From NCBI GenBank assembly GCA_009602725.1, contig WELB01000077.1, forward strand, positions 155,066 through 183,936: 28,871 bases of DNA, read 5' to 3'. Origin of the DNA: Spirogloea muscicola. Lineage: Eukaryota; Streptophyta; Zygnematophyceae; Spirogloeales; Spirogloeaceae. Both the position numbers and the translations under genes were made by a program. Below are positions 2,684 through 28,754 of the stretch, one piece after another. Positions within the stretch are counted from its first letter, which is position 1. Each line of letters starts with the position of its first letter. The notes under the pieces were generated by a model that saw only the letters and a program-made list of their open reading frames with translations, made no database searches and was not told where the DNA came from.

Positions 2684-4834
2684 ATGGCCGCGGGCGAGCC
2701 GCCCTCCCCCCCCGCGCGCCCCGCCTACCGCGCCGCCCGCAAGCCCTCCGCCGTGAAGGTGTACACCGTCAACCACGAGTCCAGGTCGGCCCCCACCACG
2801 CCACCACTCTGCCGCCTGCCCGCCTGCTGCCTCAGCAGGCCCTGCGCCTTCCGGCCTCCCCAGTCCCGTCGCCCGCCATCCCGCTCGTTGCACAGCCACC
2901 GTCGTTGCGGTAGCGATTGTCGCCCACTGCCCTGCCGCTGCAGAAAATCGTCACGCTTAGCCTGCCTGCTTGCGGACGCAGATACCTCATTGTGAGGAAC
3001 GTCCCAGCGCTGGGCTGCACCGACGAGCTCATTGGCCTCTTCGGCACCTATGGACCTATTGAGGAGTAGGGGCCCTGCTCGGCGAGCTGCACCACTCCCC
3101 TTGACCCGTCAGCTCGTCCAGTGCTACTGCAAGTCACACAATACTGATACTGGGAGTGTTCAGCGGTGTCAGTGTGAGGTGACAGTCCATGGTGGAAAAG
3201 CACGTCAGTGACTCACTCTACAACTTCGACGTGTCTCCCCAACCGCGGGGCCTTGCTTTCAGGTACCGCCTGATGGACGAGCTGGAGAGTGCCCCTTTCA
3301 CCGACATATACTGGATCAAGTATGTGCAGATTGCCAGTGCCCGGTAAGCCACAAGGCCACAAATGAGCACTCTCTCAGTCGCCTCATCCATACCGTACTG
3401 CAGTCTTGCTCGGCAACCTCCTCACAGGACCTGCCTGGAAAGGGTGGCTCACACCAATTGCACTTCTTCCCTGCAATGGGACTCTTCTCTGATGACTGTT
3501 GAAGCCCTTCTTGCAGCTTTGCCAAGCGGAAGCTTGACAAATTCCAGTTTCTGGGAAGCCTCCTGGAGGTGACGTACTCGCCACGGGATGAGACGGTCAT
3601 GGATACACGCAGCAAATTTGAGGAGCGATGGTGGACAGTGGTCCGCAAGTGCGACTGTGAGGATCAATGCCTGACTTCTTGCATTTGTGCACCTGCACAC
3701 CTGTCTCAACAGCTGCAAATATCTCCGCAGGCTGCTCACTGAGGTCCTCATTGCTGCTTGCCTGGTAGCCACGCTCAGAAAGGCAAAGCAAGCTGGAGAA
3801 CCTGCAACTCTTGCATTGCGCCAAGCACTACCTTCCATGGAGCCGGTGCTGCACATCACAGGAGCTTCTGCTACTCCTGGACGGCTGCCTGTAACGCACA
3901 TGCTCGAAGCTCCCTGGCCTGGGCATCAATATAGGTTTGATACTGCAAAGCTTGTCGTTATTGCCATCACGTCGAATACTGCACACGGTTTATTGTTTGC
4001 GGAATACTTTGCATGGTACTCCACTCATGTGCAGTATCAGTGGTTGCATTCTGGTAGCAGATGCCCTGTGCAGCAGAGGCTGCCAGGGGCCATTGCATCA
4101 AGCCAGCCAGAGGCCATCAAGGATCAAGGACTGTCGCACTATGCAGTAGCTGGCTTCAGCTTCTGTGAGACCCTTCACGAACCAAAAGGTTGCAATGTGC
4201 GCAGTGTGTCTGTGAACCAGGAAGCCCAGGTACAGGCTGAAAGTCGGTCAGCTGCGCCCATCAGCAATATGCTTCATGGCTCTTCAGCACGCCCTGGAGA
4301 GTCATTGGTGAATGCTCCCCAAGCGCAGCCAGTAAGTCTACAAGCTATGCCCGTCAAGTACAACTGTTTGCTATCAACAAGGTTCAGGGCTTGTACTAAC
4401 GGGGTCCTGATATTTCTTCTGCCTACTTCTCCTGGGCAGTCATCCAGAGCACTCACTGGTGGTCAGGCATAGATAGGCACAGTGGCGCTTGAAGGGGATA
4501 TTGTCAGTGCAATTGCATCTGCTTGCACTCCCTGACTTGTGGCTTGGGGCTCAGGCGTCGACCAGGCAGTATGAAGGCGTCATTCAATATAGGACTCTCC
4601 GTGTTCCTGTCTTGGCCAGTCTACTGAGGTCGCCACACTTTTCTTGTGCTCCTGTCTTGGCCAGTCTACTGAGGTCGCCACACTTTCTTTGTGCTGCAGC
4701 AAGTCGTAGAGGTTGGTGGTATGGCAACTCCAATGTGCTGCGACATTGGGTTCACGTGCCGCCCTCCTGAAAGACGTGGCATAGATCAGCTGGAGTCAAA
4801 GCGGGCTCGCAAGGAAACGCGGAGGCGAATCTAA
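2684..4834 (+). CDS. RBM48: RBM48-like RNA-binding protein (RRM), multi-exon
   Basis: This looks like RBM48, known in animals and plants as a partner of ARMC7 needed for splicing of U12-type introns by the minor spliceosome in the nucleus. The ATG at 2684 opens a GC-rich first exon. Exons join in phase: 2684-2784, 2982-3065, 3263-3343 and one starting at 3517, all with GT-AG borders. Together they read KVYTVNHES, then YLIVRNVPALGCTDELIG (RNP2-like strand, residues about 35-55), EEYRLMDE, FTDIYWIKYVQIASARFA (RNP1 region) and KRKLDKFQFLGSLLEVTYSP. That is the RBM48 RRM, including the family's KRKLD and TYSP segments. A plausible last exon starts at 4700 and ends with LESKRARKETRRRI and TAA at 4832. 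The end of exon 4 (near 3647) and the exons up to 4700 are unresolved; the 3687-4472 open frame may contain part of them. Confidence 0.8.
4601..4690 (+). repeat. Perfect-phase 45-bp tandem duplication
   Basis: Two adjacent 45-base units (4601-4645 and 4646-4690) share CCTGTCTTGGCCAGTCTACT followed by GAGGTCGCCACACTTT and differ at a few positions. A third unit seems to start with GTGCTGCAG, which contains the AG used as acceptor for the proposed last exon of the RBM48-like gene (exon start 4700). The duplication thus repeats a pyrimidine-rich stretch just upstream of a splice acceptor. Confidence 0.9.
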
Positions 4835-9859: not shown

Positions 9860-11550
9860 TCAGAGGGGAGGGAGCAACTTGCGGATCCATTCTCGAAAGT
9901 CTCTGGCTTCATCAGGGTGAAAGCGATGGATTTGTTCAGGCCCCCTCCGAAAGGTACATGACACACCTGCCTCCTTCAGCAGGTCCCTACCCACTTCCCC
10001 ACACCTGAAGTCCACGACGCGGTCCTGGTCGCCATGACTCCACCAGACAGGAGTATCCTGTACCAGAATGCGAGTTATTATGACGAGCTGTCAGTCAGCC
10101 CGAACAGAAGGCCGCAGCTAACAGTTAGCAACGGTAACAACAAAGCACAGAAGTCTAGGCTTGACTTCTTTGCGACCTGCATAAATGGCCTGGTCAATGC
10201 AGTTTAGCTCAAGGGGCACATGTAGCTCGAATTGCATGTGCTTGCAGCCTTGACTAATTGTGATGAACGGAAGTCCCAACCATGACTCAATGCTTGCCCA
10301 GTAAGAGATTAGGCTGGCGCATTTGGAGTCCCGGGCCATGGGAGTGCCCAGAGGTGACAGAAGGCAATGAACACGTGCCTGCGCCTCAGGCGAGACGAGG
10401 GAGAGGAAGGTGGAGTTGGGGAGCGGCACCCAGCCCCAGAGTACGGCTGCACCAGCAAGCTTGTGGGGGTAAAGCATGGAGCTCATCAGCGTCAAGGCAC
10501 CCCCTTGGCTGAATCCCGCCACCACCATCCTTTGCATTTACAAGAGGAGACAGGCTGTCAACTGGCTGACCACACTCGCAGAGTACGGCAGCGCAAGGTC
10601 ACCGGCAAGAAAACGATGTCCACCGCCAAGAAAACGATGACGAAATCGTCAAAACTGTAGCACAGAAGCCCTGTTACCTGTGGTGCTCAATGCCAGCAAG
10701 TGCTTGGGTCTCGAGCAGCGAATGCACTGTCCGCACTGCCGCAATGACATCTGCAGAACACCGGACAGCCCTTTGCATGAGCTGTGCGAGCATCTGCTGC
10801 TGCTGCTGCCTGGAGTGGGGCCCAGCTTGCAGTACTGCACTGGTGGCCACGCACAGGTCCCACAGCAGGACTCACCCTCCTGCTTGGAGGGAGGTGAGTC
10901 AGCCTTCACAGGAATGACAGGCATGTCGAACCACGAGGGTGTGACCGCCCCACGGTTGCAGGTCACCGCCTGCTCCGGCGCTGTGATCCAGAGGCCCGTG
11001 GGCATCAGCAGGCTGAAGGGTGTGCCGACAAGATCTGAAGGCCCATCAAGCTCTGCCACTCTTGAGCGGTGACGCAGGGGAGCCCTCACGCATGCCAGGA
11101 GGTCCACTGCGTCAGCGAAGAGGTGGAGTTTCAGCGGGATTGCATCGCTGGGTGCAGCGAGCTACCAGCGGGATGGAGCCACTTGATGTGGCCGAATGTG
11201 GGGTCCATATGCATGTCCTTGGCGTACGAGCGATCGTTGCCGGGGCGGGAGCCCAGGCCGTGCAGCCAGACCACCAGGGCGGTGTGCTGCGCAACCGCGG
11301 CTGCGTCGCTGCCCCCTGGCAGCTGAGCGGCGGCCTGGGCCCCGGGGCCGAGCCCCTCGGACGACTGCACGACCACGGAGCCGGACTCGTCCTCGACAGT
11401 CTCGGCGGTAACGTCCGGCTTGGCGCGCGCGGCGCCGAGCGGTGCGGCAGTGCCGCTGTCATCGCCGAGGGCGGCGGGGCGCGCGGAGCGCAGGTAGAGC
11501 GCGGCGGTGGCGGAGAGGGCGAGGGCGAGGGCGAGAGCGAGGGCGGCGTG
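9860..11550 (-). CDS. Acyl-protein thioesterase-like serine hydrolase, membrane-anchored
   Basis: An alpha/beta-hydrolase of the phospholipase/carboxylesterase (LYPLA, acyl-protein thioesterase) family, which removes acyl groups from lipids or S-acylated proteins. Exons from 5' to 3': 11550-11166, 10980-10876, 10750-10678, 10529 to about 10379 or 10373, and 10057-9860; the first four join in phase. The first exon encodes an A/L-rich helix (AALALALALALSATAALYL), a variable linker, then ALVVWLHGLGSRPGNDRSYA (oxyanion HGLG) and FGHIKWLHPA. Next come APEQAVTCNRGAVTPSWFDM, HSLLETQALAGIEHHR, VVAGFSQGGALTLMSSML (nucleophile Ser in GFSQGG) and DTPVWWSHGDQDRVVDF (acid Asp). The end is RRGPEQIHRFHPDEARDFRE, where the His of QIH aligns with the family's GxGH. 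The triad looks complete. The start codon is not found; the single N at 11551 sits just upstream. The exon 4 donor is either GC (after 10379) or a weak GT (after 10373). Confidence 0.85.
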
Positions 11551-17063: not shown

Positions 17064-17870
17064 NNNNNNNNNNNNNNNNNNNNNNNNNNNNNNNNNNNNN
17101 NNNNNNNNNNNNNNNNNNNNNNNNNNNNNNNNNNNNNNNNNNNNNNNNNNNNNNNNNNNNNNNNNNNNNNNNNNNNNNNNNNNNNNNNNNNNNNNNNNNN
17201 NNNNNNNNNNNNNNNNNNNNNNNNNNNNNNNNNNNNNNNNNNNNNNNNNNNNNNNNNNNNNNNNNNNNNNNNNNNNNNNNNNNNNNNNNNNNNNNNNNNN
17301 NNNNNNNNNNNNNNNNNNNNNNNNNNNNNNNNNNNNNNNNNNNNNNNNNNNNNNNNNNNNNNNNNNNNNNNNNNNNNNNNNNNNNNNNNNNNNNNNNNNN
17401 NNNNNNNNNNNNNNNNNNNNNNNNNNNNNNNNNNNNNNNNNNNNNNNNNNNNNNNNNNNNNNNNNNNNNNNNNNNNNNNNNNNNNNNNNNNNNNNNNNNN
17501 NNNNNNNNNNNNNNNNNNNNNNNNNNNNNNNNNNNNNNNNNNNNNNNNNNNNNNNNNNNNNNNNNNNNNNNNNNNNNNNNNNNNNNNNNNNNNNNNNNNN
17601 NNNNNNNNNNNNNNNNNNNNNNNNNNNNNNNNNNNNNNNNNNNNNNNNNNNNNNNNNNNNNNNNNNNNNNNNNNNNNNNNNNNNNNNNNNNNNNNNNNNN
17701 NNNNNNNNNNNNNNNNNNNNNNNNNNNNNNNNNNNNNNNNNNNNNNNNNNNNNNNNNNNNNNNNNNNNNNNNNNNNNNNNNNNNNNNNNNNNNNNNNNNN
17801 NNNNNNNNNNNNNNNNNNNNNNNNNNNNNNNNNNNNNNNNNNNNNNNNNNNNNNNNNNNNNNNNNNNNNN
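17064..17870. other. Assembly gap (807 N)
   Basis: An uninterrupted run of N. The gene to its left runs leftward and the one to its right runs rightward, and both lack their 5' ends, so the gap probably hides two first exons and a shared divergent promoter. Its borders are extremely GC-rich (near-pure C runs at 17990-18000), a usual cause of such gaps. Confidence 0.99.
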
Positions 17871-17871
17871 G

Positions 17872-20800
17872 CTCCGCCTCGCCGACCTCGCGCCCGCCGA
17901 CGGCCTGCCCACCACCACCTACAAGGCCGCCGTCGCCGCGCTCTCCCACTCCCTCGCCCGCTTCAACACCGCCATCATCCAGGTCCGCCCCCCCCCCCCC
18001 GGGGGCCCGCGCCGCCTCGGCTGCGGCCGCCGGCTCGCTGCGGCCTCACGGCCTGCCCCGCGGTCGTGGCAGCGCTCACTGCTCTCAGAGCGGTGCACGA
18101 TCGCCTTGCAGCTGACACCTACAGTGCCGTTCCGGCGGCCCGCTCAGCCGGGAAGCTGACCCCCCGCTCACCTCGTCCGCAGCTGCCGCCCGGAGAGGAC
18201 GCGCTCGCGACCTACGCTCTCGACTCCAGCTCCGCCTTCTTCCACCACAAGCCCGTGCCCACGCCGGACTTGCAGACGCTGCAGACACCGGACGGCCCTC
18301 AGGTCCCACCCTGCAGCCCCCCTTGTGCGGCGCCCTGGTGTCAACCGGGGCTGACGAGTGTGGCCCTCACCCGCAACCTCGGGACCCCCCCCCCCTGAGC
18401 ACCTGCGGCGGGCGCCAGCTGATTGCCAGCACAGGCGTCCTCCTCACTCCCTACAAGAGCTTACCCTAATAAGCCTCCCCGACACTCTTGGCCACTTTCT
18501 TTCTTCCCCATCACTTTTGGCGAAGGTCTACATGTGGTTGTGCTAAGTATCTGTCAAGCTTGCACGTCTTGCTCTGAGCCTGGCCACGTTCAGGAGTCCT
18601 AAATTTAGTGTGTCGACAGCCTTTGGCGGTGCCTCCGTTCCTGAGGCCCATCTTTGATGATGACCTGTGCACTCCACTGCGGGGGTCCCCAGCAATGGCA
18701 AATGCAGCTTTGCTGTTCACTCCTCAGTATCACAATTGGCACCCTCCTTTCGGGAAACACTTGCCATATACAGGCTGCATCAACCTGAGCTGTCCTGCAG
18801 CCTTAGGTCTGGCCACTGAGTACAGAGGTTTTAGGTTCCTTGAGCTGACGGCTTCCATTGGTGCATCTTTTGTCGAGGTCCTGTGCGGACTTATCTGTCG
18901 ACCTAGCCCCTCCTCTCCCCCTTCCCGCCCCCAACCAGGGGCCTTCCACCATTGCTCTCTTCCTTCCTTGTCAGCTCATCTCTTGTCAGCTTGGCACATG
19001 GAGAAGTAGGTGTTGACAGCGGCTTCAGTTCCTCTTGATATTTGCTGGCAGGACTGGAATCGGACAAGCGGATATTCCATCGATGCGGCTTTGGGACGCG
19101 AATCTTATGATTATCGGCCTGGGGTGCTGCCATACATAGCAGCCGGGCACCCTGTCTCAGTACCTCCATCATGCCTTCCACAAGTCTTTGCCTCGCTCGG
19201 GAATGCCTGCCGCATCATCTTGGAAGCCATTGGCCGCTCCTTGGACCTCCGGAGCTATGCCTTTCACGAGCTTCTGGACAACACGCCTCTCAAGGTGAAG
19301 ATTGATGGTGCAGGTTCTGAAGCAAAGCGAGTACATTCTGTGACCATGGATGACAGGAGCTGCAGGCTGCTACTCATCTGCACTGGCACTAGGAGGACAT
19401 GCATACCACACAATCCAAAACTCAATAGACCTTTCTCTCAATCGATGCACGAACTTGCTCACAACTGCTCCACTGTCGCCCAACATGCTGCAGGTTTCAG
19501 AAGAGTCATCCTCCGTTCTCTCTGCTACTTGCTATGGACGCCGCAGGTCAGACCAGCCTCCTGCTTTGCGTGTCTGGTCTAATAAGTGGGAGCTTCCACG
19601 AGCTATTCTGAAGTGCCTGTGCTTGTGCAAGCAAGCCTTGGTCTATTCAAGGAGTGCATGGGAAGGTGCAGACCACGTTGCAAGTAGGTCATGCATGCTT
19701 GCTAGACTGACACTTTCACCCCAAGTAGGGTTTAACAGCCGCTGCAAGGAGCAAGATGTCTATATAGGAGTGGCTCCTGCTGTAATGTTTCAAAGTCAAT
19801 GTCACCACCTCACGAGGATGAGTGGAAATGCAGTGTGTACGACAACGTGAATTTGCAGCTGCAAGCATCGGAAGACACGGAGCTCCGCGCAGAGAAGGGC
19901 CTGCTGGCCTTGGTGAGGTCTGATCGCCCAGGCCTCCACATCAGGATGCCCAACGACGGGTGGCTGTTGGTTGATGCAGAGACATCAGCTTCAGATTTCG
20001 TCCTCCTTACTGGCCTTGCCCTGCACCAGGTGACCTACCTGCTGGGCACTTGCACTTGGGCACTTGTCTTGGTTTTGCAATCAACGGAGATTGTTTCTTG
20101 AACGATTCTTCAACCTCTGGGATCTGAAGCAGTACATTTGTTTATCACTAAGTGATGGAGAGAAGAGGCCGATTCATCCTTTCTCTTGGGAGATGTCAGT
20201 ATTTGTGTGAATTCCTAATGGCTGCCTCGTGAGGCTTGAGAGCTGACCACCCTGTGACTTGCTTCCAGGCTACAGGTGGCTATGTGACACCTGGGGTGTA
20301 CAAAGTGGATGCCATGTCTGCTTATGCAGACCCGCATCAGCTTGGACTAGATCCAGGGGCTCTGAGCTCCCAGAGAGCGAGAGTGTCGCTCTCCTTCAAG
20401 TTGATGCCAAGAAGCTCTGCGATCCTCCACTGTGCAGCTCTTACTGCTGCAGGGCACATGGTTCCACAACCTTTTCACCTGCCCGTCTCTGTGCAAGATT
20501 TCATGATTCGACAGCACCCACTAGACCAGATATCTTCCAAGAGCATGGGCCTCGGTAGGCTCGAAGGCAAGAATTCATTCTTCTCACCTGGGCTCTCTTG
20601 ATGTCATTGCAGTACCTTGCTCTGATGCGTTCATAAGATAGTTCTGGCATTGCACAGGCCATTCGGATGTGCCGTGGCATTGTGATAATGCCTCTTTCTT
20701 ACGCACCCCGTCATTAGAATGACTTAGGGCTAGACCGCAGACGACTCGCTTAAGAGCTCGAGGCTGGCTTGGCTGCAGGGAAGCGAAAGAGAAGGACTTC

Positions 20801-22070
20801 ACGGGTGTCGGGAGTGAGGCCTTTGGCTCCATCTAAGCGGCTCAGAATGGAAGCTCAACGTGTGCTGAAGGAGAAGGTGCAGGACCTTGCTGAGATGAAG
20901 GGAATAAAAGTGCGCTTCTGCAACAAGGAGGTCCGCGCCTCACTTCGCCTTCAAGTTGCACAGTCAACACACGGATTGGTCCGGACTCTGTTCTAATTGC
21001 CCGTGACGTGATAATGCCATGAGTAAGATTATGTCTTCCGTGACATACTTGAAGAGAGTGCCCACTGCGAGCCAGGGCAGACTCTTCTAGATAAGAGAGA
21101 CTATTCCCATGATGTCTTCGGACTTGTTGCAAGCAAGCAGTCAATCTGTGAGGAGCAGTGCAACTTTACTGGCTGCTTACTTTCCTACAAGGTCTGGTCA
21201 TACAGGAGTGTGAGCAGCAGCACATGGGACAGGAGGGGGTTCCTTGCCAGCTACAGCGCATGGCGTTGGGCTGGCCAGAGTCCGTGCCGTTTGTGCACCC
21301 CCATGATCTGCCTAACAAGAGCAAGCAAGTATTCTTGGAGCACTTTGAGCCTGGGTGGACTGCAGCTCAAGATGGCGATTTCGTCCAATACGATGGAGCA
21401 CCAGGCGGACTGAAGAAGGTCCGAGTTGGAGATGAGAGTATGCTCAGCGACCATGCCTGGCCACTTTAGTAGGTGATGGCGGCTTGATTGGAGTACCTTT
21501 GTGAATGCATCTCGCATCCGGCACCCTGTGGTTCTGTAGAACTTGACTGGAATGCTAAGTGGAGTGAAGGCAACTGTGTGCAGTGCTCGGAGATGAAGCC
21601 AGGTTCTCACTTAAGGCCATCTATGAATACTTGAGAGAGAGGGGCAAGCCGGTGCCCACCGGGAAACCGCAAGTCATTGGCCACAGGGTGAACATCCCAC
21701 TCTTGACTCGGCTTGTTTTCGAGGCTGGCGGTCGCCATCAGGTGAGTCAAGCTCACAAGAACTGACAGCATGCGGGGTAATCTTGAATTTGCTCGTCTGC
21801 AAGATGTGGACAAGCAGCTGCTGAGTGGCGGGTGCCAGGAGTGCTGAACAATACTGACGGCAAAGCGCCTGTGTGACCCAGTTTGCTCTTCATGACGGCT
21901 TCAATCGCTTCATTCATGACAACTTCAATCTGGAGACTGCCTCAGAAAAGGACAAGGAGAGAGCCTTTGAAAGGTTGGTGAAATTGTATGACCAGGTCAT
22001 TGGAGATTACATGAGTGACATCCTCCTCCCACTTCTCAAGCAACGGGCCCCAGCAGCATACATTCCATAA
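17872..22070 (+). CDS. Degenerate 2OG-oxygenase-like / ARID-like fusion, 5' partial
   Basis: Ten exons join in phase: 17872-17982, 18183-18302, 19052-19294, 19494-19546, 19834-20029, 20269-20554, 20779-20930, 21192-21437, 21584-21741 and 21882-22070 (TAA). Exon 8 needs one extra base, most likely in the G run at 21235-21239. About 584 residues are visible. Residues 1-335 follow the isopenicillin-N-synthase/2-oxoglutarate-oxygenase fold of a plant family: RESYDYRPGVLPYIAAGHPV, FHELLDNTPLK, SSSVLSATCYGRR, KGLLALVRSDRPGLHIRMPN and SLSFKLMPRSSAILHC. The H-x-D...H iron ligands are absent: LRAEKG replaces HxDKG, and GGYVTPGVYKV replaces GGR...HRV. An R-x-S-like RVS remains. Residues 337-387 are basic (GKRKRRTSR, an NLS-like run). 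The C-terminal part, LKAIYEYLRERGKPVPTGKP, QVIGHRVNIPLLTRLVFEAG and ERAFERLVKLYDQVIGDYM, resembles an ARID DNA-binding domain. A nuclear, non-catalytic regulatory role is my inference. Confidence 0.7.
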
Positions 22071-26777: not shown

Positions 26778-28534
26778 CTAACCCTTCTCCTGGTCTGATT
26801 GCTCCTCATCAACTGTGGCAGCCTTGGATACAGCCCCCTCATCATCTGCTTCATGCATAGCTGAGATGGTCTCCATACCAGCTGTGCTCTCCACCTCTCC
26901 CATCCTACCCGTCCTCCTGGAAGCCTGCGTCTCGACCCCAGATGGCCCCACCTTCACAGCACCTGTCTGCTTATGGCCACTGTCCTCCTCATCAGTACCA
27001 TCCTCCATGTCCTCGCTCTTTTCACTCTTGGCGTCCGAATCTTCATCAGGCTGCGCTGTTGCCTCTGAGGCGGGTGTCCTGGCTGCCACAGCTTGCAGCT
27101 CCCGTATCTTCGCCTTCTTGGCATTTAGCAACACAACAACCTGCTCACAAGCAAAGATAGAAGTGCAAGATTGAGCTTGACCTCGGGTGCATGGCAGCTT
27201 GAAAGCGTCGTCTTGCAACTTTACTCTTGTCGTGCCACAATTTCAGAATGGCCTTTGCCTTTCTCTAAATGGTGGAGGCTGTATGAGCTGCAACATACAA
27301 ACTAAGAAGGACACCCATCTTCCCTCGAGCTCCTGAGAGTTGCATCAGAAGAGAATGTCGCATATTGCTTTTTCATGTGTTATCCAGGAAGTGCTCACAT
27401 GATTAAGATGGACTTGCCCATATGACACAAGAATGAATAGAGAGGCGCACAAGCTCTCAGACCTTTTTCAGCAGAAGATCTTCTGCCTGCTGCTTTGCAT
27501 CCTTGAACCGTTCGCTCTGGGTCAGGCATTTCTCTGCTTCTGCTTTCATCCGCTCAAAGCTGCGAGCTTTCTCATCAATTGTCTCCTGCCACTCCAGGGT
27601 TCTATTGATTGCCGGGCATCAAGTGTCAATGACTGTGAAGCAGGGGACACAGCCATCCTCCACTCAACACGACATCTGACAACATGCAGGAGACCTTGCA
27701 GCTTCTTGATATGAAATACTAGTGCAATTGTATGTGAACCTGATTTGAGATATGGTGAGGCTGTGTTGTCGGACTTGTGGAGGGGTTAGGCTCACCAGCA
27801 AAGTCAGGCGGTCATCCATGACAAAATCCAGGATGCTGCAGATGACCTCTTGGCTGTTGGAGGCTGACTCCAGCTCCCACCTGGCCTCGTACTTGATGCC
27901 TCCTTCAGCCAATAGGAGAGTCCATGTCAACTACACAGCGGCAACCAGCTGCACATGAGCAGCCCACGGAAGCGCCCGTACTAAGTGAAATCCTGCTAAT
28001 TGACGCTGAAAGAAGGCGGGCATGCGACCTAAGCGTGCGTGCTCGCTCAATGATTGACCAAGAACCAGACGTGAGGGCCCGCAATTACACACCAAGGCCT
28101 TCCCGTCCTCAGACACGTCGAGGCTGTAAGTTGACGCAGACTGCTGCTGCGCAAGGTACTTCATGACGACGTCCCGCACGTAATCTTCTGGAGGAATGTC
28201 CCAGTCGTCAGCTCTCTCGGCCACCTCGGCGCTGGACGCTGTGGGGAAAACAGAAGCAATACGCGTCACGCAGTTGAGACCGCGCGGCCAGCAGGCCCCG
28301 AGGCGCTTGCTGACAGAGTTGCGCACCACCAGCGGAGCGCGCGATGGCGCAGGATGCAGCAGGCGCCAGGCAGGAAACGCGCGCACCGTGGCAGGTCCAT
28401 GCGGCGGCGCCGGTGGTGACGGCCAGGTGGAAGGCGTCAGGGAGCCAGGCGCCGCGCACGTAGACGGCGCCTGCGGGCGCCAGGCGCAGGCGGGCGCAGG
28501 TGGCGGGCGCCGGCGGCGGCGGCGAGGCAGCCAT
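26778..28534 (-). CDS. XRCC4: XRCC4, non-homologous end-joining scaffold
   Basis: XRCC4 dimerises through a coiled coil and holds DNA ligase IV during non-homologous end joining in the nucleus. The ATG is at 28534. Exons: 28534-28387, 28238-28093, 27930-27796, 27632-27463 and 27140-26778 (TAG). The first three joins are in phase. Exon 4 is one base short; an extra A in the AA at about 27606-27605 would give LDARQSIETLEWQETIDEKA. Head domain (1-143): DAFHLAVTTGAAAWTCH, ASSAEVAERADDWDIPPEDY, VRDVVMKYLAQQQSASTYSL, WTLLLAEGGIKYEARWELES and QEVICSILDFVMDD. Coiled coil (about 150-220): RSFERMKAEAEKCLTQSERF, AKQQAEDLLLKK, then VVVLLNAKKAKIREL, the family's hallmark (LNxKKxKIRxL). The tail is acidic and S/T-rich with MEDGTDEEDSG, which recalls the CK2 site of animal XRCC4. 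About 320 residues, close to the usual 300-340. Confidence 0.88.
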
Positions 28535-28604
28535 ACCAGGGGCCGCGAGGGAGCGCCTGCTGCTCTTCTGCTCTGGCTGGCGGCTGCCGACGAGAACAAA
28601 AAAA

Positions 28605-28700
28605 ACGGAGAAAGGGCTCGGCCATTGAGGATAGGGCTGGGACAGCCAGCCCAAAAAAGGAATGAACAAAGTACCAGAAGGGGGCTAGGCGAAGCACTAA
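28605..28700 (+). repeat. Repeat B, longest copy
   Basis: AGAAAGGGCTCGGCCATTGA, GGATAGGGCTGGGACAGCCA, GCCCAAAAAAGGAATGAACA and AAGTACCAGAAGGGGGCTAG, continuing GCGAAGCACTAATTAGGAAG. It mirrors the minus-strand copy at about 930-1045. It begins about 70 bases upstream of the XRCC4 ATG, so it lies in that gene's promoter or 5' UTR. Confidence 0.7.
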
Positions 28701-28754
28701 TTAGGAAGACAAGCACAAAAAGAAACAAAGCAGCTACGAATCACTAGGGCAAGG

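Follow-up and report, generated by a model that had tools for sequence, protein, structure and literature searches.

Two groups of described proteins are among the closest to the gene that we report here. The isopenicillin N synthase (IPNS)-like Fe(II)/2-oxoglutarate (2OG) oxygenases are built from an N-terminal part (DIOX_N, PF14226) and a barrel (2OG-FeII_Oxy, PF03171), and the KDM5/JARID1 histone demethylases combine a JmjC oxygenase with ARID and PHD domains. Our gene lies at positions 17872–22070 (plus strand) of a 28,871-nucleotide stretch of the genome of the alga Spirogloea muscicola (C77:155066–183936, on contig WELB01000077.1; hereafter the window), in an assembly of 153 Mb in 471 contigs. 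As in the KDM5/JARID1 proteins, a barrel of the 2OG-oxygenase type and an ARID would be combined in its predicted product, but the barrel is IPNS-like and lacks the histidine iron ligands. The full protein gave no match to JmjC, JmjN or PHD in a Pfam scan up to an E of 10, which returned ARID and, weakly, AMG1_III but nothing else; having no JmjC match, the protein falls outside the KDM5/JARID1 family. The AMG1_III match overlaps the ARID region and was taken as chance. With the IPNS-like oxygenases the product shares a match to one profile that spans both the N-terminal part and the barrel, as well as the conserved Y, G, L, W, G and RxS columns, whereas both histidines are replaced, the similarity lies below Pfam detection, a segment is inserted between the YKV and RxS motifs, and a linker and an ARID-like domain have been added. 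The best overall explanation, to which we assign a probability of roughly 45%, is that one gene joins a dead IPNS-like barrel, a basic linker and a divergent ARID-like domain, with a possible role at chromatin.

The gene model consists of ten GT–AG exons, keeps phase at every junction and ends on a TAA. It predicts a product of 579 residues whose N-terminus is open, since the 5′ end of the gene falls within a run of Ns (17064–17870). The visible part of exon 1 (17872–17982, an open frame with the donor CAG|gt) opens the N-terminal region of the IPNS-like fold and aligns with the corresponding region of 32 bacterial IPNS-like proteins. Exon 2 (18183–18302) continues this part, exon 3 (19052–19294) holds the YDYRPG region and helices of the fold, exon 4 (19494–19546) the strand SSSVLSATCYG, and exons 5 (19834–20029) and 6 (20269–20554) the first and second parts of the barrel. 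Beyond intron 6 (20555–20778), which separates the oxygenase part from the linker, follow the basic exon 7 (20779–20930), the rest of the linker in exon 8 (21206–21437) and the two halves of the ARID-like domain in exons 9 (21584–21741) and 10 (21882–22070), the last of these including the stop. The junction 20554/20779 completes a glycine codon (G|GG) between GT and AG borders, and the exon that follows 20930 begins at 21206 (CAG|GAG) with the phase kept; an AG 14 bases before 21206 would shift the frame. An earlier note on this stretch had claimed that phases run continuously from the oxygenase fold through a basic stretch into an ARID-like domain, and that the critical junction is in phase with GT and AG in place. 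Both claims hold in the window; two syntenic copies with gap-free exons agree with the first, and the donor GT of the second is found in two of three copies.

These copies were recovered by searching the alga's own genome with the spliced protein, which returned the window and two further places, on contigs C75 and C156. All three copies contain exons 3–10, the window and C156 also contain exon 2, and exon 1 is seen in the window only; C156 and C75 have N gaps at exon 1, and C75 also at exon 2. The three are collinear as far as fetched (∼1.1–2.1 kb on the upstream side, 1.5 kb on the downstream side), and C156 and C75 also carry an exon that the window has 14 kb upstream; the three are therefore copies of the whole region. 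Over the 1509 sites of exons 3–10, pairwise differences number 41, 37 and 50 (2.45–3.31%), with no gap in any pair; over introns 3–9 they number 213 of 1477, 208 of 1487 and 258 of 1478 (13.99–17.46%), with 85, 80 and 117 gap columns. Identity is 97.5% to C156 for exon 2, also gap-free, and among the three copies 96.3–97.5% for exon 3, 98.1–100% for exon 4, 96.4–98.0% for exon 5, 97.6–98.6% for exon 6, 97.4–98.0% for exon 7 and 94.4–97.4% for exon 8; the position of the stop in exon 10 is common to all three (TAA, TGA and TAA).

The variable sites of exons 3–10 are distributed 6/5/52 over the first, second and third codon positions, and the rates of nonsynonymous (dN) and synonymous (dS) change are 0.005–0.008 and 0.09–0.12, respectively. 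For the oxygenase exons 3–6 dN is 0.003–0.009 and dS 0.081, for the linker 0.007–0.014 and 0.087–0.171, and for the ARID-like exons 9 and 10 dN is zero in all three pairs (115 residues) with a dS of 0.097–0.174. Purifying selection acts on all parts of the gene. The N gap at its 5′ end and the loss of a splice donor in C156 are what a decaying pseudogene or an assembly chimera might show, but the same order of exons recurs on three contigs, and we dropped this reading as extremely improbable on account of the gap-free exons, the codon-position bias and a dN far below dS, counts that weigh least for C156. Other genes of this genome also occur in two or three copies (C50/C73, C230/C108/C12 and C11/C18/C26). 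Such copy numbers, together with a dS of ∼0.1 between the copies studied here, are consistent with a triplicated or hybrid genome.

Whether the oxygenase and ARID-like parts belong to one gene depends on intron 6, which is 81.2–86.5% identical between the copies, with gaps, and several observations here weigh against a single gene. The donor is GT in C77 and C75 and GG in C156. When each GT between base 201 of exon 6 and the 3′ end of intron 6 was spliced into exon 7, an open in-frame reading was obtained for 1 of 11 GTs in C77 and 1 of 14 in C75, in each case the modelled donor, and for none of the 12 tested in C156, which thus offers no replacement. In addition, reading through exon 6 leads to the same TGA after 27 codons in C156 and C75, a stretch that takes up the first 84 bases of intron 6. 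C156 may be a non-functional or shortened copy, produce a rare splice form or contain a sequence error. In this same copy (L001) the donor has changed from GT to GG, yet the ARID-like exons downstream are identical at the protein level.

The missing donor of C156 and the shared TGA would fit two adjacent genes, or an oxygenase-only form made by intron retention, with one product that terminates within intron 6 and another, ARID-like, that starts in exon 7, where all three copies have an in-frame methionine (20848). However, the read-through tails look non-coding: between those of C156 and C75, 7 of the 28 residues (counting the stop) are different, with 5/2/4 changes by codon position, and in C77 the tail has a gap relative to the other copies and stops after 15 codons, near 20601. 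Positions 20555–20601 differ by 15–19% between copies as opposed to 2.5–3.3% in exons, so that the stop near 20601 lies in non-coding-like sequence. The 69 bases of exon 7 that precede its first in-frame methionine, by contrast, contain 2–3 differing sites per pair and no gap, and three of the four variable codons vary synonymously, which is the pattern expected if this segment is coding and read from exon 6. Two separate products are thus rather unlikely, and C77 and C75 very probably contain a single fused gene, in which one transcript would join the exons that flank intron 6. A block of 23 bases (20602–20624) that is identical in the three copies had also drawn attention; it is ordinary, as the longest identical runs of introns 3–9 measure 14–35 bases.

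The oxygenase part yielded no Pfam match at an E of up to 10, which counts against the explanation favoured here, and no match in a PDB search. We therefore turn to a profile made from 32 of 39 bacterial IPNS-like loci (L004–L042), from which L009–L012 were left out as duplicates of L004–L006 and L008, and L007, L013 and L032 for a matched stretch of only 99–105 residues. This profile matches residues 124–323 of the full protein with 16.4 bits and the isolated residues 1–335 with 18.3 bits; as controls, 5,000 residue shuffles gave no more than 6.5 bits, 5,000 block shuffles no more than 6.0 bits and the reversed sequence –0.9 bits. Profile–profile alignment, a single comparison, gave a probability of 78 (E = 1.8e-5) in local and of 86 (E = 5.3e-7) in global mode. 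A MAFFT alignment covering the N-terminal part and the barrel up to its end retains 18 of the 37 columns in which at least 80% of the 32 sequences agree; these include Y172, G209, L210, W219, G236, R279 and S281. Together this supports the view that the barrel descends from the IPNS-like family, and the claim of the earlier note that an oxygenase fold persists is upheld by a score that none of the 10,000 shuffles approached. The same is true of the RxS motif that it had seen, as R279-V280-S281 (20380–20388) aligns with R and S on columns conserved in 32 of 32 sequences. In active relatives this pair binds the 2OG carboxylate.

The iron site is altered. The H, D and H of the HxD...H triad are each present in all 32 profile sequences, and in our protein the first histidine is replaced by S188 or R194, depending on the alignment, and the distal one by Y252 (20299–20301; HRV to YKV) in both the profile and the MAFFT alignment. 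No histidine aligns with either ligand position: residues 150–251 contain only H211 and H240, and the next, H264, sits in the segment inserted between YKV and RxS. The HxD place (19868–19894, S188-E189-D190 ... R194-A195-E196) has the same histidine-free amino acids in all three copies, with synonymous variation only at codons 188, 193 and 194. For the acid ligand, the profile alignment pairs HxD with S188-E189-D190, keeping the aspartate at the cost of a five-residue insertion after D190, while an alternative, which is the pairing given in the earlier note, places R194-A195-E196-K197-G198-L199-L200 on HTDxGLL without gaps. It had been proposed that all three Fe(II) ligands are replaced; the alignments indicate that two iron ligands, both histidines, have been lost, as they are gone in every alignment, and that the fate of the third depends on whether D190 or E196 is placed opposite the acid. 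Such losses would abolish catalysis, and the barrel is in all likelihood a catalytically dead member of the IPNS-like family.

An enzyme or metal site that relies on other ligands (Asp190 or Glu196, and Tyr252) would account for the constraint on the whole barrel, the retained RxS and an Asp190 that can be aligned with the aspartate of HxD, but both histidines are gone, and the nearest others are H211, H240 and H264, the last within an insertion. The characterised Fe/2OG halogenases present the opposite pattern, having lost the acid and kept both histidines, and we regard a still active barrel as quite unlikely. An ordinary member of the family exists in the same genome, where a PF03171 match on C26 (minus strand of L003) reads AHTDYG by eye. 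The present protein contains the motifs SSSVLSA and LMPxSxAIL, and YDYRPG followed by V. Land-plant proteins with a degenerate 2OG core (YDYRPGL, SSSVLSA, LMPxSxAIL), named in the earlier note, provide a lead only, and none of them is known to have an ARID part. A search for relatives with residues from exons 3–10 found none in the viral or genome contig collections, as the 14 genome-contig pattern matches encode no relative.

Neither the Pfam scan of the full protein nor a PDB search gave a match for the linker (residues 337–464). The linker starts strongly basic, with 11 K/R within residues 336–365, and the KRKRR...KRLR of exon 7 corresponds to the stretch resembling a nuclear localization signal that had been noted before. 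The protein is probably nuclear.

For the C-terminal 115 residues alone, the Pfam ARID profile gives an E of 5.4e-5 and 24.0 bits over positions 6–88 of 89, the match covering residues 474–560 in exons 9 and 10 (21584–22070), where an ARID-like domain had been predicted. The best solved-structure matches are likewise ARIDs, although weak: ARID4A (E = 0.017 and 0.046) and ARID5B (E = 0.2, residues 4–107, almost all of the domain), with unrelated chains from 0.57. A profile made from five ARIDs scores 13.8 bits, compared with at most 8.6 bits in 5,000 shuffles. Against an ARID stand a score just under the Pfam cut-off (24.0 vs 24.1 bits), a weaker match in the full protein (E = 0.0012, 19.6 bits), a profile–profile probability of 36 against the five ARIDs, and a phenylalanine in place of the tryptophan that all five aligned ARIDs have. 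The C-terminus also contains no Ser-Ala-Ala segment, present in four of the five, and the segment before the last helix is slightly shorter than in the ARIDs compared. The conserved tryptophan and the Ser-Ala-Ala region are typical of ARID. An exon-by-exon Pfam search of the genome does not list this locus among its ARID matches, which is to be expected of a domain that an intron divides. The C-terminus is best called a divergent ARID that may bind DNA, and it probably has a true ARID fold.

The earlier idea of a dead oxygenase tied to a DNA-binding module is borne out as far as the fused and constrained gene, the barrel without histidine ligands and the ARID-like tail are concerned, and is weakened at the DNA-binding end by the absence of the typical tryptophan and Ser-Ala-Ala. 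The same substitutions, the shorter segment before the last helix and the score below the cut-off would agree with a real ARID-like fold that has lost DNA binding and become a protein–protein module, making the protein a scaffold that does not itself bind DNA. The dN of zero over 115 residues in three copies points to strong constraint on this domain, but constraint of this kind does not separate the two possibilities, and we consider the loss of DNA binding conceivable, though less likely than not.

Elsewhere in the genome, C50:385400–387000 (L043) encodes, within a single open frame, an ARID and after it a PHD-like Cys/His segment, an arrangement that is KDM5-like, and C73 has an ARID match similar to that on C50. 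Searches of open-access papers on an ARID–oxygenase fusion or on ARIDs in green algae turned up no description of the fusion, and those on oxygenase pseudoenzymes and on Apatococcus genomes gave no paper; AT3G63290 led to PMC6359015 and PMC5225596. In passages of two further papers, the string 'arid' occurs solely where the reference list names JARID (PMC3475032) or in its climate sense (PMC13366370).

Three other genes were noted in the window. A gene with an RNA recognition motif (Pfam RRM_1, 7e-6) at 2700–3665 on the plus strand resembles RBM48. An exon at 10121–10537 on the minus strand is phospholipase/carboxylesterase-like (Abhydrolase_2, 1.2e-7), and one at 27934–28740, also on the minus strand, resembles the N-terminus of XRCC4 (5.1e-5; 23.6 bits, cut-off 26.2) and is a possible DNA-repair gene.

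Since the whole protein has been kept intact by selection, the single fused gene probably has a non-enzymatic job, perhaps on chromatin. In such a model the basic stretch would take the protein to the nucleus, the ARID-like domain would dock it on DNA or on a chromatin complex, and the iron-free barrel would, without turnover, provide a folded scaffold or a pocket that takes up a small carboxylate. We put this chromatin-scaffold mechanism forward tentatively. In a more specific version, the iron-free barrel would bind 2OG or a related carboxylate through RxS and, joined to the ARID-like domain, sense metabolites at chromatin; such a factor would be a non-catalytic parallel to the JmjC–ARID demethylases and would have arisen independently in algae. 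This version is speculative and on present evidence improbable. If the gene is real as a protein, it would represent a second, independent joining of a 2OG-oxygenase barrel to an ARID-like domain, with a barrel that is unable to hold iron in the usual way but evolves under strong purifying selection. Binding studies would gain from it a naturally occurring 2OG-type site that lacks iron ligands, and the role of a dead 2OG oxygenase, perhaps a nuclear one, would be directly testable in an alga.

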